64,000 nucleotides of DNA from Apus apus (Eukaryota; Chordata; Aves; Apodiformes; Apodidae): positions 116,255,206 to 116,319,205 of the forward strand of contig NC_067283.1 of the NCBI RefSeq assembly GCF_020740795.1, in the 5' to 3' direction. The notes under the pieces were generated by a model. That model ran no database searches, was not told the origin of the DNA, and was given only the letters and a program-made list of their open reading frames with translations. Within the stretch, counting starts at the first letter, position 1; every line of letters begins with the position of its first letter. A program made the translations under genes and the position numbers. Shown here piece by piece: positions 29,539-64,000 of this stretch.

Positions 29539-29700
29539 AGAAGTTGCAGATGCTCTGTCCCTGGAAGTGTTCAAGGCCAGGTTGGATGGGGCTTTGAGCA
29601 GCCTGATCCAGTGAAAGCTGTCCCTGCCCATGGCAGGGGAGTTGGACTAGGTAATCTTTAAAATTCACTTCCAACCAAAAAAACTCTATGATTCTATAAT
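29539..29700 (+). mobile_element. CR1 LINE, 3' terminal fragment
   Basis: About 160 bp of CR1 3' end in plus orientation. It starts within the block TGTCCCTGGAAGTGTTCAAG, passes through GGGGAGTTGGACTAGGTAAT and ends with CTATGATTCTATAAT. It is diverged relative to the 14.8 kb element. Confidence 0.9.
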
Positions 29701-39533: not shown

Positions 39534-39732
39534 TCATAGAATCATCATAGAATCATAGAATCATTGAGGTTGGAAGGGACCTTAAAGATCATCAAGTCCA
39601 ACCCCTCTGCCATGAGCAGGGAACCCTACCACTAGACCAGGTTACACAAGACCTCATCCAACCTGGCCTTAAAAACCTCCAGGGATGGGGCATCAACAAC
39701 CTCCCTGGGCAACCCATTCCAGTTCCTCAATG
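39534..39732 (-). mobile_element. CR1 LINE, 3' fragment in minus orientation
   Basis: Starts with the reverse complement of the CR1 terminal repeats (CATAGAATCATAGAATCAT), followed by GGTTGGAAGGGACCTTAAAG and AACCTCCCTGGGCAACCCAT, which is the 3'-UTR and the end of the polymerase frame read backwards. It is 5'-truncated at about 39,732. Terminal octamer repeats have slightly expanded at 39,534-39,563. Confidence 0.95.
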
Positions 39733-40090: not shown

Positions 40091-40332
40091 CATAAAATCA
40101 TGGAATCATAGAATGGCTAAGGTTGGAAGGGACCTTAAAGATCATCAAGTTCCAACCTCCCTGCTATGAGCAGGGACACCTCACACTAGACCAGGCTGTA
40201 CAAGCGTCATCCAGCCTGGCCTTGAACACCTTCAGGGAGTGGGCATCTACATCTCCCTAGACAACCTATTCCAGCACCTTACTGCCCTCATGGTGAAGAA
40301 TATCTTCCTGATGCCTAACCTAAATCTGTTGC
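40091..40332 (-). mobile_element. CR1 LINE, 3' fragment in minus orientation
   Basis: Same family and orientation as the element 360 bp before it. It opens with ATCATAGAATGGCTAAGGTT and GGAAGGGACCTTAAAGATCA, then the reverse complement of the end of the polymerase frame up to AAGAATATCTTCCTGATGCC. The two elements are separate insertions, because each has its own 3' terminus. Confidence 0.95.
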
Positions 40333-46300: not shown

Positions 46301-47690
46301 CAGGGAAGAAAAGCACAGCAGTTACTTTTTTTACTAAAAATATGTGCAACATATTGTCCATCTTTGACAAAGGTTTTATTCAGCTTTAGTGTCATGGAGG
46401 TTTTAATTTCAGTCCACTCTTACTTGTTCATCGCTGCTGATTCATCAGAGCTGTAGATGGCAAGCAGTTGATGTTTGGATTTAGACATTTTCATTTAATA
46501 ATTTTGTTGGTATCACTAACACACTTATGCTGAACTGCAAGCATGTGGCTTTTTCCATATGCAAAAATCCCACATCATCTCTCTTGTAACTGTAAGTAAT
46601 TGGCATAATGGAACAATAACTGCCCAGCTACTTGTGTGTATAATGTAACAATTTTATTCTGGCTAAAGACAAGGAACTTTACATTTTGAAATTACTGTGA
46701 AATGTTGCTACCTACTGAAGGTTGTATATATCTACATATATATATATACACACTACAAGACTACAGTAGCATTATATTTAGGACCATAGTCCATCTTCTA
46801 GACAATTTCTTACGACATTCATTCTTTTGGCCTTGTTAGGGCTACTGTGAGACCTGAGTGCACCAAAGAAACTTGTGTCACTGTAGTATATCTGAGGTCA
46901 GCTTTTTAATTGTGCAGTTGTACCACTTCTCCTTCCCTAAATATCTAGCATGTCAGAATAAATCTTAAATTGTACAAGTTTGTAGTAGTTCTGCTGACAT
47001 AAAACCAGCATAAATACAAACCAAGGCTAGGCCAAATTGTTTGGTTCAGTTGAGATCACTGATCTTTTGGAGTGGCTCCAGCATTGTATAAAGGATTTGT
47101 TTTTATTTTATTATTTTTTTTTAACTTATATATACATAAGTATGAAAACTAACAGGATTTCTGTTCTTGGAAATTCAAATGTAGGGGGGGTTCTACCTGA
47201 CCCCAACTACTGTCCTGCTTCGTGGTCCCATGCGACTCCTTCTCAAACTGAACAAAGTTGGGAACTCCTTCTGTAATCAAACTGTTGTAAATTTATTTTA
47301 CCGAGAAAAATGTGACAGGTCCGTAATCTTAGTATCATTTATTTATCTTAATATTAAAAGAGTAGATAAATTTGTGAAAATAATGGGTGATGAGCCTTGG
47401 ATCCCTATTATAAGGGGTTTTTGTTTCGTTGATTGTTTTTTGTTGTTGTTGCTGTTTGTTGGTTTGTTTAGTTGGGCTTTTTTGGTGTTGTTTTTTTTTG
47501 AGGAAAGTGCCATTTCTAGGCTTCCTTTCGATGTCGTTTAAATTGAGTAGCATTTACCATTGACCTTATTGGAATTTGTTTGGGTCCACGTATTATCTGT
47601 CTGGAATAGATACTACAGAAGAGTAGTAGCGCTCTTGTCAGTTAAACTTGTCATTTCCCGTTGATTCCTATACATTTGATTTATGTCTTC
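40333..47690. other. Gene-free AT-rich stretch with low-complexity tracts
   Basis: No gene recognised. Low-complexity DNA includes A/C-rich tracts at 43,548-43,620 and 45,455-45,524, a pyrimidine tract at 45,171-45,217, TA-rich DNA near 46,727-46,752 and T/G-rich DNA at 47,415-47,505. I see no CR1 copy here or further right. Confidence 0.6.
45171..45217. repeat. Polypyrimidine (T/C) tract
   Basis: Runs of six to eight T separated by one or two C over about 47 bp. It is followed shortly by AAG, so it looks superficially like a splice acceptor tract, but no coding sequence follows. Confidence 0.9.
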
Positions 47691-47799
47691 AGACCGGGTA
47701 GGGAAGGAGTTACAGCCGCATGAAAGCCAAGCCCAGGCAGTCCCGTGGGCGGCAGAGTTAACTCCTTCCTAGGAGAGAGCAGGTTGGAGGCTCTGCTCC

Positions 47800-48310
47800 A
47801 CACCTCAGGTCCTCCAGAGAGGGCTGCGGGAAAGTGGGCGGCCCCCCGGGGAAGCCAAAGGAGCAGGGGTCCAGCGGCCTGATGGAGGGGCAGGGTGAGG
47901 GGAAGCGGCGGCCGCGGGGGCGGGAGCCGCGCTGCCTCCTGCCCGGCCATGCCCCGCACCCTGCCTGGCCCCGAGCCCGCCGGCCGCGGGGCCGGGGACC
48001 GTCTGGCACCCAGCCGGGTGGGCCAGTGGGGGCACCCCACTCGTGTCTGCCGGGAGGCGACAGCGCTCTTACCTCGGAGCGGGCGTCGCGCACGTCCCTC
48101 TCCCTCCGCCAGACGCCCTTCAGTCCTCACATGCGGGGACACCGTTGCTTAGCACACCCCGAAGCATCCGCCCGCAGATGCAACAGTTTATTGTGCGGGG
48201 ACCGTGCTGCGGGTCCCCCAGCCTGTTGTCCGTCCCCAGCAGCTGCAGAGCCCAGGGCGTTGGGATGTGTTTCCACTGAGCCGGCTCCGCACCGGGTGCT
48301 GCGCGCAGTT
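47800..48310. promoter_or_regulatory. CpG island about 3.5 kb upstream of SOX17 copy 1
   Basis: Very GC-rich with dense CpGs, including GCGGCCGCGGGGGCGGG at 47,905-47,921. Long overlapping open frames on both strands are explained by the composition and resemble no family. A strong splice-donor sequence on the minus strand, GAG|GTAAGAGC, has its exon/intron boundary at 48,073/48,072. A minus-strand transcript starting in the island and running away from SOX17 is therefore possible. It could also be an alternative upstream SOX17 promoter or a CpG-island enhancer. Confidence 0.6.
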
Positions 48311-51300
48311 ATGAGGAGAGAGCTTTTTGCGTGTTTGGGTGTTTGCTAGAAAGCGATTTGCAATGTTGGGGACTATTACCTTGTTGTGAAGTAGTTAACG
48401 TTCCTTCGATAGTTACAGATTTATTTTTTTCTTCCCCCCCTCCCCCTTTCAATAGTGGGTCACTCCTGACCAAGACCTATCTGTTCCACGTACTTTCTTA
48501 CTGCCAAGTCCCGAAAAGCCTTGATTCAGGGAGATTACTTGCACCATGCAGCGTTATCGGGCTGGGCTACATTCATTTAGTGGTTTTGAACTGCTTTACA
48601 GAGGCAAAGCGTGTTGCCTTTAAATACGCGTTAAAAAAAGGCTCTTGTCTTGAGAAACTGCTCGACTCGCAGGAAACTCTCCGGATGTTTGCTGCTTTTC
48701 ATGTGGCATTTGTGGTCGGCTCTGATAACGCTGGGAGCACCACTTCCAACACCGCATTCTGTAATGGACCTGAAATAGAAACACATCTCTCGCCGGAGGA
48801 TCCCCGCTCCGCGCCCCCGCGCTCTGTACTGGAGGGTTTAAAAGGTCAATAAATCAGAAGGATGAACTCTCGGCGGCATTGTTAGGTTGGGAAAGTTAAC
48901 GAATGACCCCAGGAGTCGTGCGACCATGAAGGTTTCAGGAGCGTCAGAAGAAGCTCTTCACTAAGCGCTTCAGGGAAGTGAGGTATAAGCAAGGAGCACA
49001 ACTTCAGTCAGAATCAGAGCTGTGCGGTGTGCTTTAAAGTTACAGTTCGAAAACACCAAAAGAAACAAAACAGAAAGAGAGAAAAGCTGTGAGATAATCT
49101 GTTTCTGACACCAGGGGCATTGAAAGGGTCACAAACTGCCAACAGTTTCTGTACAAACCAGGGAGCTTTTACTTTCTCGGCTTAGATTCAAAACACACCT
49201 TTCTTTCTTTGATCCCAGATCAATGAGCTGTAGAAACAGTTTGCACAAATCTACCAAACAAAGTCAGCGGCAGTTTGCTTAGTTTATTACCTCATGTTCA
49301 TTATATAGAAAAACATTTTCTTTTCTGCTTCAAGTGACAGCCCCGAAATTGCCGTAAAATGCATTTGTAAGCAGTCCCTCTGCTCGCTGTACTTTTTCAG
49401 TGCAAGTTTGCAGGATTTGTTCTCTTGGCTCACGAAATTGTCTTTGCTAAATAGAGTAAAAGGGACTGCTTGGCGTTTTAACAAGATCGGCTGGTAAAAA
49501 AGAGGGAGTACTCTCTTCTGGGCGTTAAACTTCTAAGCGGTCAGTTTTGTCCGAGGCACTAATATGGCGTGAGCTGGGAGCTGATGTGGGAGTTACTGGG
49601 AAGGCAGCGACTTCGTTAGGGCAGCGCATTGTTGCCTTCTTGGTTTTTGTTTTGCTTGGAATTTATTTTGCTTTCTCCCCTCAGCTGAGTGTTTTGTTCT
49701 CTACAGGGGAAAATATGCACCCTTTCCTCCTGCATGAGTTTACTGCAGACGCGATTCGGATTGGGTGGAATTCAGAATTTTCTCTGGGTATCGGCCGCGC
49801 TTCGGTGCATGACCTGTCCTCGAGCAGCTGGCCTAGGATTAAGGGCTCTGAGTCCTGGCACGTCGGGGCGGGGAATGTCACAACCTGCACCAGAAAACCA
49901 ATGTCACTGTCACACCAACCTTTAAAAGGTACGCCCTAAGTTAGTGTCCCAAAGGCGTTGGGCTGAAAAATATTGAAAAAGCACTGAATTCCCTAACAAG
50001 CCTTCCTAGGTATTATCACAAGTTCTGTAAATGACGGTCGGCTTTGCATGTGGAGTGTGTCCCGATGAATTTAACAATCAATTCTGAAAGCATTATCCTT
50101 TTCAAGAAGGGTGTTATTATATATTAATATGAGACAAATATACATATACATATGTGTTTTCGCCTCTGCTGCTTTTTACAGCACCTGATATAAGAAAGAA
50201 AAAAATTGAATCGCTGTCTCTCGATGTGGTGGACTAGCTTGGGTGTTTGGAAATAAACCACCAGCAAAAACAACAAAACCAAACCAAAACCGGGGGGAAA
50301 AAAATCCCAAGCAAATAAAAACCCTAAAACCTTCTTTTTGCTTGGTTTTAAGCAGCTACTAGTATTTTGGCAATGGTTTTGGCTTCTCGCAACAGAGAAG
50401 GATACGCGATGCCATTAGTCTGGAAAGATATCGTTGATTAAAATCTCTAACAAACGGAGAGGAGCAGAAAGCACGAATGCAGAAGTGTCTCGGGAATTAT
50501 CCTCCCCGGTGTGAGTCCTGGGCAGCCACCGTTCGCCACCGCGTTATCCTTCTTTTTAGAATATCAACTGGCTGTCAAGCGTGAAGGAGCAGGTTTTTAC
50601 GTTGCAAGAAACAGGAAATTCAATGTTAGAATAAGTCAGTGGTGTTATTGGGTTCATTAATTTAATTTCAGTGAGAATTCTTACAGTATTGGTTTATTTG
50701 ATTGAAGTGGCTACCCAAACAAAAGTGTCCTTAACCAAATAAAACTCTTTGATCTTCAGTTTAAAGCTCAGCAGTTTCTCAAATAAGCATCGATGCATTT
50801 AATAGCACCACATAACAATGCAAATATTAATTAGAGTGCCCGTGAAAACGCCGTGTTTTACATTAGTTTGTAATCCAAAGAAGAACATTAATGGTAGAGG
50901 TAGGATTTATATTTTTGAAGTCATAGACTTGTTACAAATACATATTTGTATTTATAGTTTGTTTATTCAGACAAACCAGATAAATCCTGGACAAGGCAAT
51001 TAAACAAGCAAGAAATTCTGCAAAGCTCAAGTTAAATAATAACTCCGTCAACTTACGTTACATATAATTAATATTTGATCTTTTGGAGATACTGAATAAC
51101 TTTATTAGGTGAAAAGGAGGACAGAATATATTTCATAGACTTTACTCCGGATTCAGTAAGCTACTGTCCCAAGCACTTTCATCTTTCATGGGCTGACGAG
51201 GTAAAATATGCCAAGGCAGGACGGAGACGGTAGGAAGCCGGTGTGAGAAATGGGTCCTGATTTGGCTTATTTTGCCTAAGTTACTTTCCTAATCAGCAGA

Positions 51301-51575
51301 CAAAAGAAGCCCCCTGTGTCCCTCTGGTGTTACGGGATATCTGGGTGTAGCTGGAAACGATCTGTCCCGTCCACCTCTTTCCTGTCTCCTTTGCTCATCC
51401 ATCTGTGGCCGTGCCGACGACTGGAGAGTGACTGATGACAGCGCGGTAGCGCATGGCCTCGGCGGGCCGCTCCCACGGCTATTGCGGGGAGCAGGGCTGA
51501 AGGCCACGCTGTGATTACCAATGCGCTGTCGATTCCCACGAACGACGTGGGCGGGGGCACAACTTCCCGGGCCTG
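48311..51575. other. Upstream flank of SOX17 copy 1, no gene recognised
   Basis: This stretch has intermediate composition and no mobile element that I recognise. Open frames up to 173 codons (48,331-48,852) show no domain. It probably holds upstream regulatory DNA of copy 1, an inference from position alone. G/C content and CpGs rise towards 51,400. Confidence 0.5.
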
Positions 51576-51683
51576 GCCCCGCGACCTGCTCAGGTGCCGG
51601 GCCGGGAGGAGCCCCGGGGGCCGCCCCGCCACGCAGCGGGACCCGCCGCCGCCGTGCAGCGCCGCGCCCGCCCCCGCGGCCCC

Positions 51684-51710
51684 ATTGGCCGCGCCGCAGC
51701 TCAAATAGGG
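51684..51710 (+). promoter_or_regulatory. Probable core promoter of SOX17 copy 1
   Basis: An inverted CCAAT box (ATTGG) at 51,684-51,688 is followed by a TATA-like TCAAATAGGG at 51,701-51,710, inside a CpG-rich region and about 85 bp upstream of the ATG. The spacing is typical of a CCAAT/TATA promoter and predicts transcription start near 51,730. An identical pair precedes copy 2. Confidence 0.6.
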
Positions 51711-51791
51711 CCGCAGCGAGCGGGGCCCGAGCGCCGAAGCCGTCCCGCGGCCCCGGCGGAGCTGTCGGCCTTGGCGGCGGCGCGTCCCGAG

Positions 51792-53323
51792 ATGAGCAGC
51801 CCCGATGCGGGCTACGCCAGCAGCGACGACCAGGCGCAGGGGCGGTGCTCGCTGCCCATCATGATGCCGGCCGTGGGCCCGTGCCCGTGGGCAGAGGCGC
51901 TGAGCCCGCTGGGCGAGGCGAAGGCGAAGGGCGAGGCGGCGCCGTCGGGGGCGGCCGGGGGCGGCCGGAGCAAGAGCGAGGCGCGGATCCGGCGGCCCAT
52001 GAACGCCTTCATGGTGTGGGCCAAGGACGAGCGCAAGCGGCTGGCGCAGCAGAACCCGGACCTGCACAACGCCGAGCTCAGCAAGATGCTGGGTGAGCGC
52101 CGGGGGTCCCGCTGGGCGGGGCGCGGCGGCGGGAGGGCCCGACGGGCGGCTGGCTCGGGCTGCCGGGGGGCCAGGGGTGCCGGTGGCGAGGAGCCCGGGC
52201 GGGTGTCGGGGAGAGGCTGCGGGCGGGGGCACCGCTGGGCTGGCGAGCGGGAGGTGTCGGTGTGCGGCGGGTCCGTGGGGGCGAGGAGCCCGCGGCCGGG
52301 CGGGTCTGGGTGTCGGGGCTGCGGGCGGGCGCGGCGCTGCGGGGACCGGGCGGCGGCGGCGGGCGGGCGGCCGGTGTGACGGTGCTGGTGGTCGCAGGTA
52401 AATCGTGGAAGGCGCTGTCGCTGGCGGAGAAGCGGCCGTTCGTGGAGGAGGCGGAGCGGCTGCGGGTGCAGCACATGCAGGACCACCCCAACTACAAGTA
52501 CCGGCCGCGGCGGCGGAAGCAGGTGAAGCGCCTGAAGCGGGTGGAGAGCGGCTTCCTGCAGCACGGCCTGGCGGAGGCGGCGGCGCCCGGGCTGGGCAGC
52601 GAGGCCGGCGGCGGCGGCGGCAGCAGGATGTGCATGGAGGGCCTGGGCCTGCCCTACGGCGAGCAGAGCTACGCGGCGGCGGCGGCGGCGGGCGCGGGCC
52701 ACTACCGGGACTGTCCGCCGCTGGGCGCCGGCTTCGACGGCTACAGCCTGCCGACGCCGGACCCGTCGCCGCTGGACGCGGCGGAGAGCGAGGCGCCGTT
52801 CTTCGCGGCGGGGCTGCAGGAGGAGTGCGCGCTGGTGCCCTACGGCTACGCCGCGCACCCGGCGGCCGAGTTCGGGCCGGCGGCGGCCGAGAGCCCCGCG
52901 GGGGCCGCGCTGCGCCGGCACCTGCCGCCCGGCGAGGCGCTGGGGCCGGGCGGGTCGCTGCAGGGGCTGCTGGGCTGCCCGGCGCCGCTGCACGCCTACT
53001 ACGGGCAGGCGTGCCAGCCGCCGGGCCCGGGGCGCGGCCCGCCGCCGCTGCCGGCCGGGGCGGTGGGGCAGCCGTCGCCGCCGCCCGAGGGGGGTCCGTG
53101 CCGGGAGCAGCTGGAGCACTTGCCGCAGGAAGAGCTGCTGGGCGAGGTGGACCGCACCGAGTTCGAGCAGTACCTGCGCTTCGCCTGCAAGCCCGAGCTG
53201 GGGCTGCCCTTCTCCGGGCACGACGGCGGCGGGCTGCCGGCGCCCGAGGCCGCGGGGCCCATCTCCTCGGTCGTGTCGGACGCCAGCAGCACCGTCTACT
53301 ACTGCGGCTACCCCGACCTGTGA
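51792..53323 (+). CDS. SOX17: Transcription factor SOX-17, copy 1
   Basis: SoxF-group HMG-box transcription factor. The family directs definitive endoderm, vascular and haematopoietic and germline programmes by bending DNA at AACAAT-type sites in the nucleus. Exon 1 is 51,792-52,092 and exon 2 is 52,398-53,323, joined within Gly101 (phase 1), giving 408 residues against about 414 in human. The HMG box spans about residues 64-142 ([17 protein letters not shown] from 68, ending [10 protein letters not shown]). Glu120 is box position 57, the residue that distinguishes SOX17 from SOX2 in pairing with OCT4. The C-terminal DRTEFEQYL (about 352-360) is the conserved beta-catenin-binding/activation motif, and the protein ends [19 protein letters not shown], as SOX17 does. 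A short Ala tract and Gly/Pro/Ala-rich linker lie between. The ATG has a purine at -3. An in-frame ATG at 51,594 lies upstream of the TATA-like element, so I prefer 51,792. Coding GC is extreme. Confidence 0.95.
52093..52397 (+). other. SOX17 copy 1 intron
   Basis: A 305-bp intron with GTGAGC donor at 52,093 and GTCGCAG acceptor ending at 52,397, splitting the HMG-box codon Gly101 (phase 1). It is extremely G-rich on the coding strand with many GGG runs, so G-quadruplex formation is plausible. It carries one of the two differences from copy 2 (position 52,353). No canonical long pyrimidine tract precedes the acceptor, which is common in very GC-rich short avian introns. Confidence 0.93.
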
Positions 53324-53690
53324 GGGACTCGCTCGGGGACACGCCACGGACTGGCAGGGAGGCGCCCGGCCCCCTCCTATTTATGTAATTTATTTGAATC
53401 TTGAGAACTGACAGGGTATTCATCACCTGCTCGAGGTTTAAAAGGTGACACGCCGTCTCGCTGTGTGCAGGTAGTGCAGGTCTTACCGTCGCTATCCAAC
53501 AGTGAGAGGAAAAACTGTTCCTGCTGTGGAATCGTGATACTATTTACACACTTGGAATCATATTTCTGGGATCTTGTTAGAGATCCATGTCCTTTTGTAA
53601 TGTTGTACAGAGTGCTGGTTTTGTATGTTGGATTTTGTACAGAGTAATTTTGCACTTTTACAAATAAAAAGGAAAATAATAAAGAGGTCG
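53324..53690 (+). other. 3' UTR of SOX17 copy 1, mostly private to this copy
   Basis: Only the first 79 bases after the stop (to 53,402) are shared with copy 2. The rest is unique. The private part contains two copies of TTGTACAGAGT at 53,603 and 53,635 and ends at tandem poly-A signals. The UTR would be about 370 nt. Confidence 0.7.
53663..53683 (+). promoter_or_regulatory. Poly-A signals of SOX17 copy 1
   Basis: Canonical AATAAA at 53,663-53,668 and again at 53,678-53,683, followed by T/G-containing sequence. They are about 340 bp after the stop codon and are the first canonical signals downstream of it. Confidence 0.75.
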
Positions 53691-53699
53691 CTAGTATCT

Positions 53700-56600
53700 C
53701 CTCAAGGAGATCTTATCGTCCCTTGTAATTGATTATTATTGCTTTTTAAGCCACTTTTACTTATGTCCCTTGCACTAAGCATCGGTTCCTCACACACTTT
53801 CTGTGTTTCTAGTCTTATGTCTCTTTTGCTCAAGTTATAAACAAAACTCCAAGCGTTCAGAAACTGTCTGCTCTGCACTGTTCTTTAATTTATTTTTTTA
53901 TTTTTATTGGTGTTTTTTTTTTTTTACAAGGATGATTAGTATGATTGAATAAAAAAAATAATTAAAAGGGCCACTTATGTTTGTAATAGAGAAAGACTAC
54001 ACGAAAGCTCTTATCGAAGTAGATCAGGGTTTCTGTGTTTAATGCAGTCATGGATGGACACCTTGGATGCCGTTAAGAATAGTGCCTTGCTGAAATGGCC
54101 GGCAAAGCACTAGTTAAAGCACCTCCCCGGGGAGGATGTCTCGTGTCCCAGTAGCTGCCCTTGCTGTACTGGGGAAGAAGGTGGCAGCATGGGATACCAG
54201 GTCGCTGCCTCAGAGAACGGGAGCAGTAAATCAGGGATCAAAGTAGGTGAAAAATTCAGACACGAGCCTCTAAAGGGGGAGGCTGGCCAGGAGCAGCCCG
54301 CTCAGGCAGCCAGCCACGGCTGCATCTTCAACCGTATGTCAAAGAGTCTTGACCTTTTCTTTCCTAAAGAGGTTCCTTATACTGTGCAGTCGCGCCTATA
54401 GATAGAAATGCCTTTGTGATTGACAAATATCTGCACTTCAGTTAAAGTTCCGTTAAAAAAAAAAAGGCACTTTCATTTAGATGTTAGGACTGAGTCCAGC
54501 TGTGGGGTGCGACTGATAAATTCATTATGTTTATTGCTTAAATCGTGGGGAGGGGGCAACAGTCACCTGGGTCGTTTGCTTCCTAAGATAACTGAAGTGG
54601 AAGTGAGCCCTGGGGAGGAGGGGACCCAGGTCGAAGTGGCAGACTTGTCCACTGATTAACCTGTTTTCTATGAGGACGGGAAATGAAATTGGGTGCATTT
54701 TCAAATTACATTTTAAGAGGCTTATGTGAAAGATAACGTACACAGACCCAGATACAAGCTGCCTCGGTCAGTGAGTTTGGAGCATAGCCTCGTGGGCAGA
54801 GGTTGACTGCGTAATTACAGACTATTGTTAGTGTTTCTTGAAATAAGATGCGTTGAAACCCTTAGTATTCTGTAAAATACTTCACCCTCTAGTTTCTTAA
54901 TCTTCCCATTTTACTATTTCAAACAGTCTTAAATTCTCAGAGGTATACCTAAAATATCCACCCTGCCACTCTCCTCACTACTGTTCCACGTGTAGACGAG
55001 AAAAAAAGATACATTCCTGAATGAGGTGGTACCTCAGGAAAAGGACATGAGATGTCTTGATACTTTATTTTGAAAAAAAGTATAACATATTCCTACGCAT
55101 AGATACATAAACCCAGTAAAGAAATATGCATGAACAGTTATGTTTTGGTATTGGTTTTACAGTTTTAACCTACAAGATTAAATTCAATTCGTTTTGCTCT
55201 TTTGCCTTTGCACGGCTTTCTGGAGGAAAATCACTTTGGTTGTTTTTAGAAATAACTGTTATGCTATTGGTAAGTTTGGCCAGCATTTCTTGTAATTTTT
55301 CAGTTAGGCGAAGGTCTTGCTCCCGTCCTTTCTCCTTCACCCCACCTTGCCGGACAGCTGAAGGGAACCTGAGATTGAAGTGGGTTCATAACGAAGGTTG
55401 AAAACCTTCTGCTCACAATTTATAATAATACGGTAAACTGTGGTGAATAAATATATAAATTTTAGGGAGAAACTTGGTCACTACAACAGCTTTGGGTGCC
55501 AGACAGTTCGTGGTGATCATGTATAGACAGATCTTACAACGAGATTTTTGCAGACTCAAATCTAAGGAGCATTATTTTCCTGTATGTATCCAGACGTGTA
55601 GCTTTTTCGTTATTCTTTCCCGGTCCCGTGAGAAGAACTGTCTGAATCTTCTGTAACATGCCTAAAATGTGGCAGGTTTATGCACTGCCAATATACTTGG
55701 AGCAGATTTTCTGTGGCTCCATCCAAGTCCTAAGTTCCATTTCTCGACTTTCTGACTCTTAAGTGATACCCACCCAGATCTGTCCTGAAGCCCTTTTGAA
55801 AACGATAAACCTTCCTCACATCTCATGTGTGCCCATGACCATAGGGTGTTAAAAGAGGGATCAAAAATTGATTAATTATCTTTCTCAAATATTTTCCATG
55901 GCACCGACTGGGAGTCATGCGGAGGAAGCCGTCACTACCTGCCTCGGGAGGCTGTGAAGAAGGCTACAAGTATGTGCCACAGACCCGGCTGCCTCATGGC
56001 CTCTTTGCCATACTCTGCACAGAGTCGGGGTCTGCCACTGCTACCCCGTTCCCGGCACTGCACCTAGGGCAATTCCCTCCCTGGAAACCGCGTCTGCTCT
56101 TCCCTTAGAGGTTCTGTTTTGCTTCCCGCTTCACCAAAAAGACACGGTGACATCTTTAAATGCCTCTCTAGCCTTACAACGGCTACAGCAGGGCAGCACC
56201 TTTAGGCCCCTCCCCACAGGCACTCAGCTCACTCAGGCCATTTGTGCCCAAAAGGTATTCAGCTCTTCCTTTTTGGTCCCTCTCTTACCAACTCGTCGTG
56301 TTTCAAGAGGTCCTTTCCAGATCTTAATTTTTCTTAACACAGCCCAGCTTCTTATATGTCACACTGCAGCCGGGGGGGTTCTTGTCTTTTTGCATGTGTG
56401 TGTCTCTGTGCTCTCTATTCCTTAGGTAAATCAATCTGCAGAAAAGTACATAGGCCTAGTCCGAAAGAAGGAAGTTTCAGACAAAGGTGCTGGGTTAAAA
56501 AACAGCCCAAGGCTTGTCTATACAGGGCAGGTGGAGAAGTCAGGAACTGAGATTTAAAACACTTGTGCTTAGTGGAGCGTAGCTGGGACTGGAAATGCCG

Positions 56601-56980
56601 GGAGCAGCGGTTTTGCGCTCTGAAAAGGAACAGCGGGTTTCTGTACTTTTCTGTTAGCTGTGTGCTTTTCAAACTAGAGAGAGGGTAGTCCGTAGAAAAC
56701 ATGAACAGCAGCACTGCCGCAGACTTTCTCCTTGTAGACAAGTTGTATTCATTTACGTCGCGACCCTACTCTTGTTTTGGAATGAATACCTCCCCCTTCT
56801 CCCACGCTGCTAATACGGCCGGTGAAGGACATACCAAAAAAATCGTGCTCTTCTCAGGTCCACGCGGGAACGTGTACTGGAAACCACAGCCAGCTGCACA
56901 GGAGTGGGCAATGACACCGATGCGAACAGCACGGGGACACCTGGCCCGGGCGACTGCGGCAGGTCATTTGCAAGCTTGCG
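53700..56980. other. Intergenic DNA between the SOX17 copies, left part
   Basis: No gene seen. Open frames are at most 108 codons and featureless. The sequence is of intermediate composition with some T runs near 53,890-53,930 and no recognisable interspersed repeat. Likely regulatory DNA by position only. Confidence 0.55.
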
Positions 56981-56984
56981 ACAA

Positions 56985-57265
56985 GCCTAAATGAAAGCAG
57001 CACGGTGCCGAACCGGCGGGGCGGGCCGGAGGGGGCTGCGCAGGGTCCCCGGCGTTACAACAACTGGCGGATTACCGTCCTTCCCCTCCCGGCCCCCTTC
57101 CCCTCTCCGCCGGGGCTGTGTCCGTCCTCGGCGGGACTCGCTCTTCGCAGCCCGCCGTGTGAGCCGGTTGTGTGGCCCGGGCCTCACCGCTCTCAGCCTC
57201 CCGCAGTCCTCCGGGATTTGCTTTCCCTTCAGACCCGCTGCCGGATTCGGCTGCAGCTGCCCAAC
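56985..57265. promoter_or_regulatory. Small CpG island between the two SOX17 copies
   Basis: Dense CpGs and a GC box (GGGGCGGG, 57,018-57,025) mark about 280 bp of promoter-like DNA, 3.3 kb downstream of copy 1 and 3.2 kb upstream of copy 2. Overlapping open frames on both strands look compositional. It could be a distal promoter or enhancer of copy 2 or the start of a non-coding RNA. No coding gene is evident. Confidence 0.5.
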
Positions 57266-60264
57266 TATTCAAATAGGACAGAAAAGCAGACCAAACATCT
57301 CCTCGGGTCCTTATTTAGGTGTTAGTGTGCATCAGGGCCTGCCGGTGGCTGACTAGGGCTGCACCGAGTAGCTTGTGTTATGGACGGGTCTGTGAATGCC
57401 GCTACTTATTTACCCACGTATCCTTAACGCTAAACAGATAATTAATGTGTTGAGTAATTAAATGCCTGCAAGATCAGAGTGTAATCACCCCGCTTCAGCT
57501 TCCCGTCTACAAAAAAGAGGACAGTTTATTTCACCTTCTGGGTGTTTGAACAGAGGCTCCTAAATGCAGCAGCCGTCTCGGCGTCTAACGCAGCGCACTG
57601 ACCCGCCAAGGCTTCTCGCAGGCTGCTACTTTTTGATACTTTAAATGTAAACGGTTCACCTTGAATGATTTTCTCAGGAGATTACGGGAGGTCCGTGGCA
57701 AAACCGGATTTCAACTGAGATGTGAATCCTGGCCCGGAGCAAAAGCAGCTAGGTAATTCTCCTTGCTCCTGTTACGGCAGCTTGAGTGACATTTGGCTCC
57801 AGTTTGGATGCAGCTGAATCTCTAATCGATTTTATTCTTTGAGCTGGAAAACAAACTCCGAAGCCCACACCTTCTGAAGAAAAAAAAAAGGCAAATGATT
57901 GTCAGCATATACGAACAGTTTCTACCCTGGAAGACGTCAGGTTAAGAAGGCGTTGGCACTCGTATAGTAAAAGGGCAAGTTCCTTGCTTGCCTGCTCAAA
58001 GAGCGGCGCCGAACTGGTCTCACTCCGGATCGCCATGTCCCATAGGCGCTCATGGAGTCCCAAGGCTGACGACCGGCTGCAATTACATGTTTACAACATA
58101 TTTCTTCTGAAACTCGCTTCAAAGCCACGCTTATTTTGAGGAGTATATAATTTATTTGCCACCTCTCCTAGTGTTTTTCTTTATTCTCCTAATTTTTTTT
58201 CTTTATTTATGCTGCTGAATCTCAGTTTGGAAATCACTGGTACTCAGGGGAACTGCTGGTGGGGTACGGCAGCTTTAGGGAACAAACCCTAAAACCTCAT
58301 GCTGTCAAGTTGTTATGTGTTGTGAACGAGTTAGGCGATGTGACTTCATCTCCCTGAATGGTTCTTTGACCCGGTCAGCTATGATTTGACCCGTCTGACC
58401 CATTTCGTGTCTGCCGAAGGAAATCTGCAGCTTGCTCGTGAGGTTGCGTGTCTCCCGGCCAAATATCCGGCACCCATCTCTCTCCATGCATGCTCCAGAC
58501 AGGAACAGAGGGATCCTGTTCCCAGGTTAGCCGTGCTCGTACGGAAGGTGCAGCCTGCGAGGGGAGGATCCACAGGGCGACCACCCTCAGGCAGCGCTGG
58601 CCCGGCGGCCTCCTGCCGGCAAAGCCCCGCTGTGGCCTCTCTGTCCCTCTGCCGGACTGCACGGACGGTGGGTGCGGTGGCAGGCACGGAGGGTGAAATA
58701 AGAGGACGGGGCCGCCGCGCAGGAGTCCGAGAATAGCAGCCGTGCGGCTTCAGGCTGGAAGGCAGCCCACTCACAGAAATGCGGAGTTGTAAGACAGGTC
58801 CTGTCCCCCCGGCCCTGTCCTTGAGGATGTGATTTTTTTTTTTTGCCTCAAAAAAATCGATTGCAAATTACAGCAGGGTGGGGCGGGTGCATATTTGCAT
58901 CCTAGAGAAACTTAAAATGCTTATCTAAAGAATACAAGTGGGATTTTTTTCGTATGTGTGTGTTAAAAACCGGAGCTATTCTTCCTTGCAGGTTAAGGGT
59001 TTTTAATGTAAACACATTCAGTTAATTTGTGTCCGAACGTATTTCTGTCAAAATTAAGTTGACATAATTATAATTATTGTCATTAAATGGCTCCTTGATC
59101 ACTCCTCGAAGATGTAGTCCGCCCCCGGCCCCTTCGCAGCCTGCAGGCATTTATATTCGCTTTTCCGGGTTCCCAGTCCCTCACTTCATCTGGAAGATGA
59201 AGAATCAAGCAAATCATGTCAGCGCTCTTCTCTGTTAAGAACTAAACCAAAATGATTTAGTCTCGACTTCGAGCGAAACAGGAACACAGAGGTACCGGGC
59301 AAGAGTTGTAAGATGCCTTAAAAAATAAAAATGTCTGTCAGTCGGTGGAGAGGAGGCAGGGCCCTGAAGACAGCGAGCTGTCGGAGGTATTCCGACCCCC
59401 GACCCCCACCCGGGAGCCACCGCCCAGCACGGGGGGAGTACCGCCCGCCCAGCCCCGCAGCCCGCCCGGCTGAGGCTGACACGGAAAAACGCGCCTTGAT
59501 GGGGAAAAAAAAAAAAAGGCGTTAAGGGCTGGCAAACTTAGTAAGCGCACGATTTATTCAGTATTCCCCCCCGTAACTGCAGAGCCTTTTTATTTAAATA
59601 AGAAGCCGGATGTTTTCGGCTTGTACAGTTAGGCTGCATAAGGGTTCGATAAATACACTCCAGGTCATACGGAGGCTGCGGATCGTCCGGCTGCTCGTTT
59701 GGGGGAAAACTCGTTATGCGTTCACCCTGCGTGACATAAGTCACGAATGTAACACCTTCCGCGGTACGCACTGAAAAACAGGGCTATTGGGGCGATTCAA
59801 AATATAATAAAATACTCGAGGACTTAAAATGACAGAATTCTTACAGCTGATGTGCAGGCCCTGTTTATCAGGACCGTGACGATAATCAGACAGTAGTAAT
59901 AATAATAATTCACAAAAGCCTCAAAAAGTCCTTTTTAAGGAACAAACCAAACCAAACCAACAAACGAAAAAACCCAACAGTATTGTCTTCACAGGCTTTC
60001 CAAATATTTCAATGAGCTTCAGAGTGTCGGGTTAATTTTGAACATGCCGTGATTTATTGAAACCAGCTTGCCAAGAGGGCAAAGCACAGGGTGAGGGACC
60101 AGAGAGGATCCCGCCGAGCACCCGCGGTGACAGCCAGATCGGAAGAAACCTCTCCCTGTGCGCGATGCTACACTGCCGCGCTGGGAGCGCGCACGCACCG
60201 AAGAATCTCTGCGCCCTCCCCACGGGACAGCCGGTTGGTGCGGGGAGCATGAGACGCGAGGACA
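57266..60264. other. Upstream flank of SOX17 copy 2
   Basis: No gene recognised. Composition alternates between AT-rich stretches with TAATTA-like homeodomain cores (57,432-57,465 and 59,060-59,090) and GC-rich stretches (58,480-58,740 and 59,390-59,475). A cluster of POU-type octamers lies at 58,861-58,900. The flank shows no resemblance to the flank upstream of copy 1 beyond chance words. Confidence 0.5.
58861..58900. promoter_or_regulatory. Pair of POU octamer-like sites
   Basis: ATTTGCAT, a perfect octamer, at 58,893-58,900 and TTGCAAAT, one base from the reverse-complement octamer, at 58,861-58,868, about 30 bp apart. They are 1.6 kb upstream of copy 2. POU factors such as OCT4 bind this word and partner SOX17, so autoregulation is conceivable. 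Motif matches alone are weak evidence. Confidence 0.35.
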
Positions 60265-60372
60265 GCCCCGCGACCTGCTCAGGTGCCGGGCCGGGAGGAG
60301 CCCTGGGGGCCGCCCCGCCACGCAGCGGGACCCGCCGCCGCCGTGCAGCGCCGCGCCCGCCCCCGCGGCCCC

Positions 60373-60399
60373 ATTGGCCGCGCCGCAGCTCAAATAGGG
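60373..60399 (+). promoter_or_regulatory. Probable core promoter of SOX17 copy 2
   Basis: Inverted CCAAT box (ATTGG) at 60,373-60,377 and TATA-like TCAAATAGGG at 60,390-60,399, identical in sequence and spacing to copy 1. Everything upstream of 60,265 differs, so distal control should be independent. Confidence 0.6.
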
Positions 60400-60480
60400 C
60401 CGCAGCGAGCGGGGCCCGAGCGCCGAAGCCGTCCCGCGGCCCCGGCGGAGCTGTCGGCCTTGGCGGCGGCGCGTCCCGAG

Positions 60481-62012
60481 ATGAGCAGCCCCGATGCGGG
60501 CTACGCCAGCAGCGACGACCAGGCGCAGGGGCGGTGCTCGCTGCCCATCATGATGCCGGCCGTGGGCCCGTGCCCGTGGGCAGAGGCGCTGAGCCCGCTG
60601 GGCGAGGCGAAGGCGAAGGGCGAGGCGGCGCCGTCGGGGGCGGCCGGGGGCGGCCGGAGCAAGAGCGAGGCGCGGATCCGGCGGCCCATGAACGCCTTCA
60701 TGGTGTGGGCCAAGGACGAGCGCAAGCGGCTGGCGCAGCAGAACCCGGACCTGCACAACGCCGAGCTCAGCAAGATGCTGGGTGAGCGCCGGGGGTCCCG
60801 CTGGGCGGGGCGCGGCGGCGGGAGGGCCCGACGGGCGGCTGGCTCGGGCTGCCGGGGGGCCAGGGGTGCCGGTGGCGAGGAGCCCGGGCGGGTGTCGGGG
60901 AGAGGCTGCGGGCGGGGGCACCGCTGGGCTGGCGAGCGGGAGGTGTCGGTGTGCGGCGGGTCCGTGGGGGCGAGGAGCCCGCGGCCGGGCGGGTCTGGGT
61001 GTCGGGGCTGCGGGCGGGCGCGGCGCTGCGGGGACCGGGCGACGGCGGCGGGCGGGCGGCCGGTGTGACGGTGCTGGTGGTCGCAGGTAAATCGTGGAAG
61101 GCGCTGTCGCTGGCGGAGAAGCGGCCGTTCGTGGAGGAGGCGGAGCGGCTGCGGGTGCAGCACATGCAGGACCACCCCAACTACAAGTACCGGCCGCGGC
61201 GGCGGAAGCAGGTGAAGCGCCTGAAGCGGGTGGAGAGCGGCTTCCTGCAGCACGGCCTGGCGGAGGCGGCGGCGCCCGGGCTGGGCAGCGAGGCCGGCGG
61301 CGGCGGCGGCAGCAGGATGTGCATGGAGGGCCTGGGCCTGCCCTACGGCGAGCAGAGCTACGCGGCGGCGGCGGCGGCGGGCGCGGGCCACTACCGGGAC
61401 TGTCCGCCGCTGGGCGCCGGCTTCGACGGCTACAGCCTGCCGACGCCGGACCCGTCGCCGCTGGACGCGGCGGAGAGCGAGGCGCCGTTCTTCGCGGCGG
61501 GGCTGCAGGAGGAGTGCGCGCTGGTGCCCTACGGCTACGCCGCGCACCCGGCGGCCGAGTTCGGGCCGGCGGCGGCCGAGAGCCCCGCGGGGGCCGCGCT
61601 GCGCCGGCACCTGCCGCCCGGCGAGGCGCTGGGGCCGGGCGGGTCGCTGCAGGGGCTGCTGGGCTGCCCGGCGCCGCTGCACGCCTACTACGGGCAGGCG
61701 TGCCAGCCGCCGGGCCCGGGGCGCGGCCCGCCGCCGCTGCCGGCCGGGGCGGTGGGGCAGCCGTCGCCGCCGCCCGAGGGGGGTCCGTGCCGGGAGCAGC
61801 TGGAGCACTTGCCGCAGGAAGAGCTGCTGGGCGAGGTGGACCGCACCGAGTTCGAGCAGTACCTGCGCTTCGCCTGCAAGCCCGAGCTGGGGCTGCCCTT
61901 CTCCGGGCACGACGGCGGCGGGCTGCCGGCGCCCGAGGCCGCGGGGCCCATCTCCTCGGTCGTGTCGGACGCCAGCAGCACCGTCTACTACTGCGGCTAC
62001 CCCGACCTGTGA
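60481..62012 (+). CDS. SOX17: Transcription factor SOX-17, copy 2
   Basis: Encodes exactly the same predicted 408-residue SoxF protein as copy 1. Exon 1 is 60,481-60,781 and exon 2 is 61,087-62,012, with the same phase-1 junction inside the HMG box. All functional parts are intact: HMG box at residues 64-142, Glu at box position 57, nuclear-localising basic stretch at its end ([13 protein letters not shown]), DRTEFEQYL motif and SOX17 C-terminus. No stop, frameshift or missing residue suggests decay. Perfect CDS identity over 1,227 bases, synonymous sites included, means either very recent duplication, ongoing gene conversion, or assembly duplication. The gene symbol is by homology. A 'SOX17-like' label would be equally fair. 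Confidence 0.92.
60782..61086 (+). other. SOX17 copy 2 intron
   Basis: A 305-bp intron with GTGAGC donor and GTCGCAG acceptor, identical to the copy 1 intron except for A at 61,042. Its retention shows the copy arose through DNA, not RNA. Confidence 0.93.
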
Positions 62013-62360
62013 GGGACTCGCTCGGGGACACGCCACGGACTGGCAGGGAGGCGCCCGGCCCCCTCCTATTTATGTAATTTATTTGAATCTTACCGGGAGA
62101 GTTTCACGAACTCCGGGCAGAATTACGCTGCTGTCTTGCAGATTAAAAGCGTGGTTCAGACTGTTTTTCGACTGATGTGCCAACACATTTACCTCTTTTT
62201 TACATCCATGCCCAAAATGATCATTAGTTTTTCCAACACCAGCACCCTTACATGTTTGCCCAGAACACCTTTTTATTAACTGTTTTTAACTATATTTATC
62301 TTTTTTTTTTTTTTTTTTTTTTTTGTATTTCAGGAAAATAAATCTATGAACTGTTGTTTC
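62013..62360 (+). other. 3' UTR of SOX17 copy 2, mostly private to this copy
   Basis: Shares its first 79 bases with copy 1, then is unrelated. It contains a T24 run at 62,301-62,324 just before the poly-A signal. The UTR would be about 340 nt. A long U run in the message could bind U-rich-element proteins, an inference. Confidence 0.6.
62337..62342 (+). promoter_or_regulatory. Poly-A signal of SOX17 copy 2
   Basis: Canonical AATAAA 325 bp after the stop codon, followed by T/G-rich sequence (TGTTGTTTCTGTT) at about 62,351-62,363, a good downstream element. Confidence 0.7.
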
Positions 62361-64000
62361 TGTTATTCTTCTGCATTATGGCCCTTTAGGGAGACTAACC
62401 GAAAATTAAATCATGCACTAAGGCGGAGTAAAGTGAGTGCAGATACCTTGGGTCACTTACTTTCACCCTGACAATGCCTCTTAAATGGTCACCAGGACCA
62501 AGCAAGTTCGTTTGCTGTTGTGTTCCTGGTACAGAGCTCAATAGCCAGACCTGTCTCTTGGAGTACACAATATGCAACTGTACTAAGCTGCAGTTTTTTG
62601 TAGGGCTTTTTTCTGATTTCCAAGTGCCAGCTGGATTTTGTGATTGTCATTAAGACGTTGGGAAAAGCCTTTAACTGTAGGCTCTGTAACAAAGGAAACT
62701 AGGTAAGTTTGGGATACTGAGTTTCATGTGTGCCTCAGAGCCCATTGGATTTTGATACTTGTGAAGGTTATTTTGCTTCACGTAGTGATTTCTCTTTGAA
62801 CCAAAAGATTCAGAAATAGCATTGGTACTCTCTTCACAAATTCTTTTACTTTATGCCTTCTACCTTCTACCAGGTTTAGGCCACTTAGTGCCATGTGGTT
62901 CAGGCTTATATCAGTAAGGAGAAAAAACACAAATTCTTGCAAATGCTCATCTCAGTTGCTCTCAATCAGCTGCCCTTATCAATTAGCTAGTAAAATAGCT
63001 AGCCAGAGTTTTTTTAGCATGTTCAACTCTACTACTCTGTGACGTTTCTGCTAGTGCAATAGTACAACTATATCTCATTCTTGTCGTAACACTATCAGGT
63101 AAGCATTAAGCTAACAACTCTTCTGGTGTCTGTTTGAAAGACACTCATTGGGCTCAACCTACAATACTTGTCGTAGAGAATTTCAAATATTTTAATTTGC
63201 AAATGACACCAGAAATAATACCAATGACATTCATAATATAAATATTTTAAGGTATGAGTACCTTGTCTTGCACTTGTACCTTATCTTAAACTACTGAGTT
63301 GTGGATGAAGAAATCAAGCAAGAAGTCTATTTGTGTAATCCATGGTTGGTTTTATAAAAACTAGGTGATAATGACCATTTTCTAAGCATCTGTTATGTAT
63401 ACAGAGACAGCTGCATTACTGTCAAACAGATGATTTAGTAGACATGTACTTGAGCAGATAATGTTTTATTACTTCAGTAAATGTAAGTTTATTTATGTCA
63501 GAAGAAACCCTGGTTATGTCCACTGACTTCAGTGACATTTTTAAACTGCATGCAAGTGTAATATTGAAAATGTTTGCCTGAAATAGTGGTTGCCTCAGAC
63601 GGATTGTTGTAGCATTTCTTTTCTCTTCAGCTTGACAATGAGGAAAATACCAAGGCCAGTTTCTAATATTAGGGTGCTGGGTGCCAAGTGGGAAATAAAA
63701 GTGCGTGTATCTCTGTGTTTTAAGAACAAAATGGACATTCTTAATATGTCCCCATATCTTAATATGAGGTATTTTTTTTAGAAAGAAACATTGAATGCAT
63801 TGTGATTCTAGGCTGCTATAAGTTTTAACAATGACCTTTAACTCTGTAGTTCAACACATTGGATTAGTCCAGTTGTGGCTCCTAGATGATCAGCCCTTAT
63901 CATGACCATCGTGGTAGTCACACTCCTTCAGTTGTGGACTTCTAAAATCGTGGGAGATGCTTTTGCTCTTGTCATTCCACAAATACTGTTCTAAAAAACC
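62361..64000. other. Downstream flank of SOX17 copy 2, gene-free
   Basis: AT-rich non-coding DNA resembling the left desert. I see no gene, RNA gene, named repeat or further SOX17-derived fragment before the window ends. Confidence 0.6.

Follow-up and report, generated by a model that had tools for sequence, protein, structure and literature searches.

The tetrapod Xenopus carries several SOX17 genes together in a sox17a/sox17b cluster, and in teleosts sox32 has diverged from sox17. Close, GC-rich pairs are also known from mammals, in which HSPA1A and HSPA1B lie about 12 kb apart and have gene bodies kept near-identical through gene conversion, with different 3' ends. Teleost sox17 and sox32 are described, in the portion of PMC5524304 used here, as two SoxF genes on one chromosome that arose by small-scale duplication, sox32 being a separately named gene present in all teleosts covered there. 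The present study concerns a 64,000-nucleotide stretch of Apus apus (GCF_020740795.1, contig NC_067283.1, positions 116,255,206 to 116,319,205; hereafter the window, with coordinates counted from its first base), in which the assembly places two intact SOX17 genes in tandem. As in teleosts, two SoxF genes share one chromosome, but here both proteins are identical. As in Xenopus, several SOX17 genes stand together in a tetrapod, but those of Xenopus are distinguishable paralogues. The likeness to HSPA1A/HSPA1B extends to close spacing, high GC, near-identical bodies and different 3' ends, whereas those genes are intronless heat-shock genes and conversion of the SOX17 pair would be deduced from one genome. 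Given the teleost and Xenopus precedents, a pair of SOX17 genes represents nothing new in kind.

Self-BLAST of the window identified a direct repeat of 1,827 bp (51576..53402 and 60265..62091, both on the + strand) with 99.891% identity, two mismatches and no gap openings, and the gene models placed one complete two-exon SOX17 gene in each block, with a start-to-start spacing of 8,689 bp. All numbers given in the preliminary description, which had claimed two such genes on one strand at this distance with only two substitutions in 1,827 aligned bases, were reproduced. The two coding sequences, 1,227 bases each and including 248 four-fold sites, show no difference and encode the same 408-amino-acid protein from intact reading frames. 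Both substitutions lie outside the coding sequence, one 177 bp 5' of the ATG (C at 51615 in copy 1, T at 60304 in copy 2) and one in the intron (G at 52353, A at 61042). This match is far beyond chance.

The duplicated unit corresponds to the gene body, starting 216 bp 5' of the ATG and ending 79 bp past the stop codon. The block of copy 1 comprises a putative core promoter (inverted CCAAT-type box at 51,684, CAAATA at 51,702), a 5' leader, the coding part of exon 1 (51792..52092, 301 bp, ATG at 51,792), a GT..AG intron of 305 bp (52093-52397), the coding part of exon 2 including the stop codon (52398..53323, ending at 53,323) and the 79 bp past the stop. The corresponding coding parts of copy 2, with the intron at equal offset, are 60481..60781 (ATG at 60,481) and 61087..62012 (stop codon ending at 62,012). 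Beyond the blocks, each copy has its own 3' flank on the + strand, a putative private 3' untranslated region (UTR) running in copy 1 to an AATAAA at 53663 (53403..53668) and in copy 2 to an AATAAA at 62337 (62092..62342), and the two flanks are not alignable to each other. These polyadenylation signals were considered as proof of native 3' ends and set aside for want of power, since about 39% of 400-bp stretches contain an AATAAA by chance.

The high GC content remarked on in the same description was also borne out, at 0.78 for the duplicated block and 0.85 for the intron, with a GC content at third codon positions (GC3) of 0.98, compared with 0.67-0.92 at six other SOX loci, whose frames include non-coding bases. 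This property cuts both ways, as it could hide a real SOX17 pair or could cause a misfilled gap.

The protein contains an HMG box (PF00505, E=1.5e-25, residues 67-134) and a Sox17/18 central domain (PF12067, E=2.9e-19, residues 203-251). Its closest solved structure is SOX-17 (164.2 bits, vs 148.7 bits for SOX-18), a comparison that covers the HMG region only and has no SOX7 entry among the matches listed. Judged by domains and structure matches rather than by a tree, the protein is a SoxF member that best matches SOX17. The coding sequence of SOX17 is split into two exons by an intron that falls within the HMG box, and both copies have this structure. In vertebrates the gene order is MRPL15 - SOX17 - RP1, and the same order was found at this locus: an MRPL15 C-terminal exon (E=1.7e-65) is located about 83 kb 5' of the window, and an exon with two doublecortin stretches lies at window +124577, about 62 kb downstream of copy 2, followed by an open frame of 1,880 amino acids. 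Together, the doublecortin exon and this open frame look like RP1, which we take to be the name of this neighbour. Domains, best structure match and neighbours thus agree with the SOX17 name and with two intact genes in the assembly. SOX7- and SOX18-like genes, presumably so named, lie elsewhere, on contigs C4 and C16.

The whole assembly (1.10 Gb in 110 contigs) was searched with a procedure that scores the best candidates only, so that counts of repeats are lower bounds. The DNA search returned 31 matches, namely the two full-length SOX17 copies plus 29 short matches to SOX domains or GC-rich sequence, and the protein search returned 30, the SOX17 pair accounting for four exon matches and other sequences for 26; no third full-length SOX17 copy was found among the matches of either search. 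The spacer between the genes (53403..60264, CpG observed/expected ratio (o/e) 0.71) matched once at full length, with two further matches elsewhere, each about 40 bp long. For the upstream flank (47,000-51,575) there was likewise one full-length match, together with 38 short matches that all fall within one stretch of about 90 bp, and the downstream flank (62,092-64,000) matched once at full length. No N bases are present in 264 kb, comprising the window and 100 kb on either side.

Both genes are located in a CpG-rich valley of about 15 kb (47001..62250), copy 1 inside it and copy 2 at its downstream edge. The CpG o/e per kb has a median of 0.12 and a maximum of 0.40 over positions 1-46,000 and is 0.5-1.0 from 47,000 to about 62,200. 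CpG-rich valleys of this kind are seen at developmental regulators. Directly upstream of each block is a CpG-rich shoulder of 150 bp, with GC 0.67 in both cases and 16 CpG at copy 1 (51426..51575) or 18 CpG at copy 2 (60115..60264), and the shoulder of copy 2 cannot be aligned with its counterpart at copy 1 except over short matches. An equally rich upstream shoulder was found at 354 of 10,237 block-free valley positions for site 1 and at 104 of 10,237 for site 2. As such shoulders are rare in the valley, a random landing place of a new copy would rarely look like this. The test was devised post hoc and neighbouring positions are not independent, so that the shoulders provide moderate evidence for two native island sites over a chance landing place.

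Separate from this comparison, 11 bases at 60136-60146, located 119-129 bp upstream of the copy 2 block, equal the start of an Illumina adapter, after which the sequence departs from the adapter; the likeness is probably due to chance, and these bases are perhaps an ETS-type site. At the upstream edge of the valley, positions 47413-47503 show 73-91% identity to 38 listed sites across the genome and constitute a small dispersed repeat.

Our tentative preference, held with clearly less than even confidence, is that the locus truly contains two SOX17 genes and that gene conversion has recently homogenised their bodies. Under this reading, two older gene sites, differing in CpG-island shoulder and 3' end, would have stood 8.7 kb apart between MRPL15 and the RP1-like gene, and ectopic conversion would recently have made the gene bodies identical between the block limits. 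Recombination in birds is concentrated at GC-rich CpG islands, and conversion would therefore be expected there. The observations in favour are that the block limits track the gene body, that only two differences, none of them coding, separate the copies, and that both sites adjoin CpG-island shoulders within one valley; the GC content of the intron and of third codon positions fits GC-biased conversion. The single-copy state of the spacer and the tested flanks, the absence of N over 264 kb and the lack, by score, of another close equal pair among the 30 SOX or the best 27 forkhead matches count in its favour as well. The SOX17 protein made by the two copies would then be the same and their core promoters nearly so, but distal promoter sequence and 3' UTRs would differ between them, which would raise SOX17 dosage and leave room for different regulation.

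Several results weigh against an old, converted pair. Identity reaches the last base at both block edges and then drops to chance level, with in-register matches just outside the edges of 5/20 and 2/20. Decayed homology outside the tract, which would be expected of an old converted pair without strictly defining it, was not convincingly present in the flanks. A sensitive same-strand comparison of the regions around both copies gave no match with an E-value below 0.1. Local alignment of the 1.5-kb upstream flanks was at background, one background value for the copy 1 flank being a self-overlap, and within the last 300 bp upstream an 11-base match, out of register, was reached by 1 of 60 shuffles under one scoring. 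For the 1.5-kb downstream flanks, the alignment score was reached by none of 60 shuffles, but the alignment is a T-rich run, equalled by 2 of 128 (flank 1) and 12 of 128 (flank 2) other window segments. Flank homology as the trace of an older, larger duplication was accordingly rejected. Nor could the ancestral 3' flank be chosen by comparison with a human SOX17 3' UTR sequence, because both flanks scored within background, and this comparison was not used. The age of the pair, moreover, is deduced from the genome of one species, and near-identical close copies, real or not, may exist elsewhere in the assembly.

This last point comes from a forkhead search, which served as an approximate control on regulatory genes of high GC content. 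The best 27 of its 57 matches include no equal-scoring close pair, nor, by score, is there another among the 30 SOX protein-search matches, but weaker forkhead matches do include close equal-scoring copies on contig C36. Forkhead half-domain matches of equal score occur there five times in about 41 kb (68,189,967-68,232,514) at intervals of roughly 4.5 and 16 kb, and a further three, two of equal score, lie at 53.3-54.0 Mb (53,284,414-53,954,013). The matches on this contig are perhaps a multi-copy FOX gene, on what we guess to be the Z chromosome, and the five close copies may be a real amplification or an assembly error.

A somewhat unlikely but serious alternative is that the genome has one SOX17 gene here and that one of the two GC-rich sites, being hard to sequence or assemble, received the SOX17 block belonging to the other site or to the other haplotype. 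The duplicated block coincides with a GC-rich island and ends exactly at flanks that do not align, as a misfilled gap would, and the 0.11% difference between the copies has the size of allelic variation. The copies on contig C36, if not real, could be further errors of the same assembly. In the part of PMC9516828 consulted, most false gains of genes in bird and platypus assemblies are set apart by assembly gaps and show read depth of half or less, read-depth gaps being accepted in place of assembly gaps, and some are joined by unsupported sequence through incorrect gap filling; such sequence-joined false duplications are known there from vertebrate assemblies including zebra finch. The SOX17 pair resembles these false gains, as characterised in that part of the text, in having a near-identical copy beside the original, but no assembly gap was found between the copies and no tested flank is repeated. 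The absence of N, the intact state of both reading frames and the lack of another close equal pair by score in the 30 SOX or the best 27 forkhead matches also argue against an error of this kind. A false duplication of the ordinary haplotype type was rejected as unlikely, since the spacer and the tested flanks are single-copy, that is, flanking sequence is not repeated with the gene, and the region contains no N.

The identity of the two copies is young. At an assumed rate of 2e-9 substitutions per site per year, the two differences in 600 noncoding bp correspond to about 0.83 My (million years; 0.10-3.01), and all sites give 0.27 My. Two real histories fit such an age: an old pair may have undergone conversion, or a single templated insertion may have occurred recently. 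In the second, a 1.8-kb whole-gene segment would have been copied once, 8.7 kb away, by template switching or similar repair no more than roughly a few hundred thousand to 3 million years ago, one site being new and the other ancestral. The two differences and the ages derived from them, the exact edges and the lack of convincing homology outside them suit such an event, as does the absence, judged by eye, of target-site duplication at the junctions, which is expected of repair and not of transposition. Against it, the insertion must have landed immediately next to a CpG-island shoulder, a setting that 1.0-3.5% of valley positions have, an objection softened if breaks favour CpG islands, and must have cut out just the complete gene, which a random 1,827-bp piece in the valley would do in about 2% of cases, softened in turn because gene-less pieces would go unnoticed. 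A fresh insertion appears unlikely, though far from negligible. A transposon-borne copy was dismissed, as no target-site repeat was seen by eye at the block junctions, and a retrocopy, as the intron is kept in both copies.

Literature searches, in which most subscription journals were outside coverage, listed no paper announcing a SOX17 pair in a bird. The section of the quail Sox study seen here reports that Sox17 is missing from the turkey genome and that tandem or segmental duplications occur only in chromosome-level genomes, and it names no SOX17 pair (PMC6523956). SOX17 is likewise not mentioned in the sections of the false-duplication papers PMC9516828 and PMC9516821 that were available. 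The SOX17 exon 2 peptide, run against viral and prokaryote collections, brought up no relative. Elsewhere in the window, self-BLAST identified three diverged repeat copies with 78-83% identity, one of them inverted (39544-39722, 40097-40274 and 29558-29700), which are probably an old interspersed element.

The preliminary description had gone further and suggested that birds, or this lineage, may keep a two-gene SOX17 locus that is easily collapsed or missed. An ancient tandem pair in birds or a large bird lineage, kept identical by conversion at CpG islands and missed since its GC-rich copies collapse, seems to us rather improbable. If the second copy is an artefact, it would be a warning that even where a chromosome-scale assembly contains no N, a developmental gene in it can be false. 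SOX17 regulates endoderm, arterial endothelium and, in humans, germ-cell fate in a dosage-sensitive manner. Should an ancient avian pair prove true, the dosage of this endoderm and endothelium regulator would be doubled, and its distal controls and 3' UTRs would each exist in two sets. If the pair in this bird is real, its two identical copies would alter the reading of loss-of-function, expression and regulatory experiments in avian embryos and would offer a clean case of CpG-island gene conversion.
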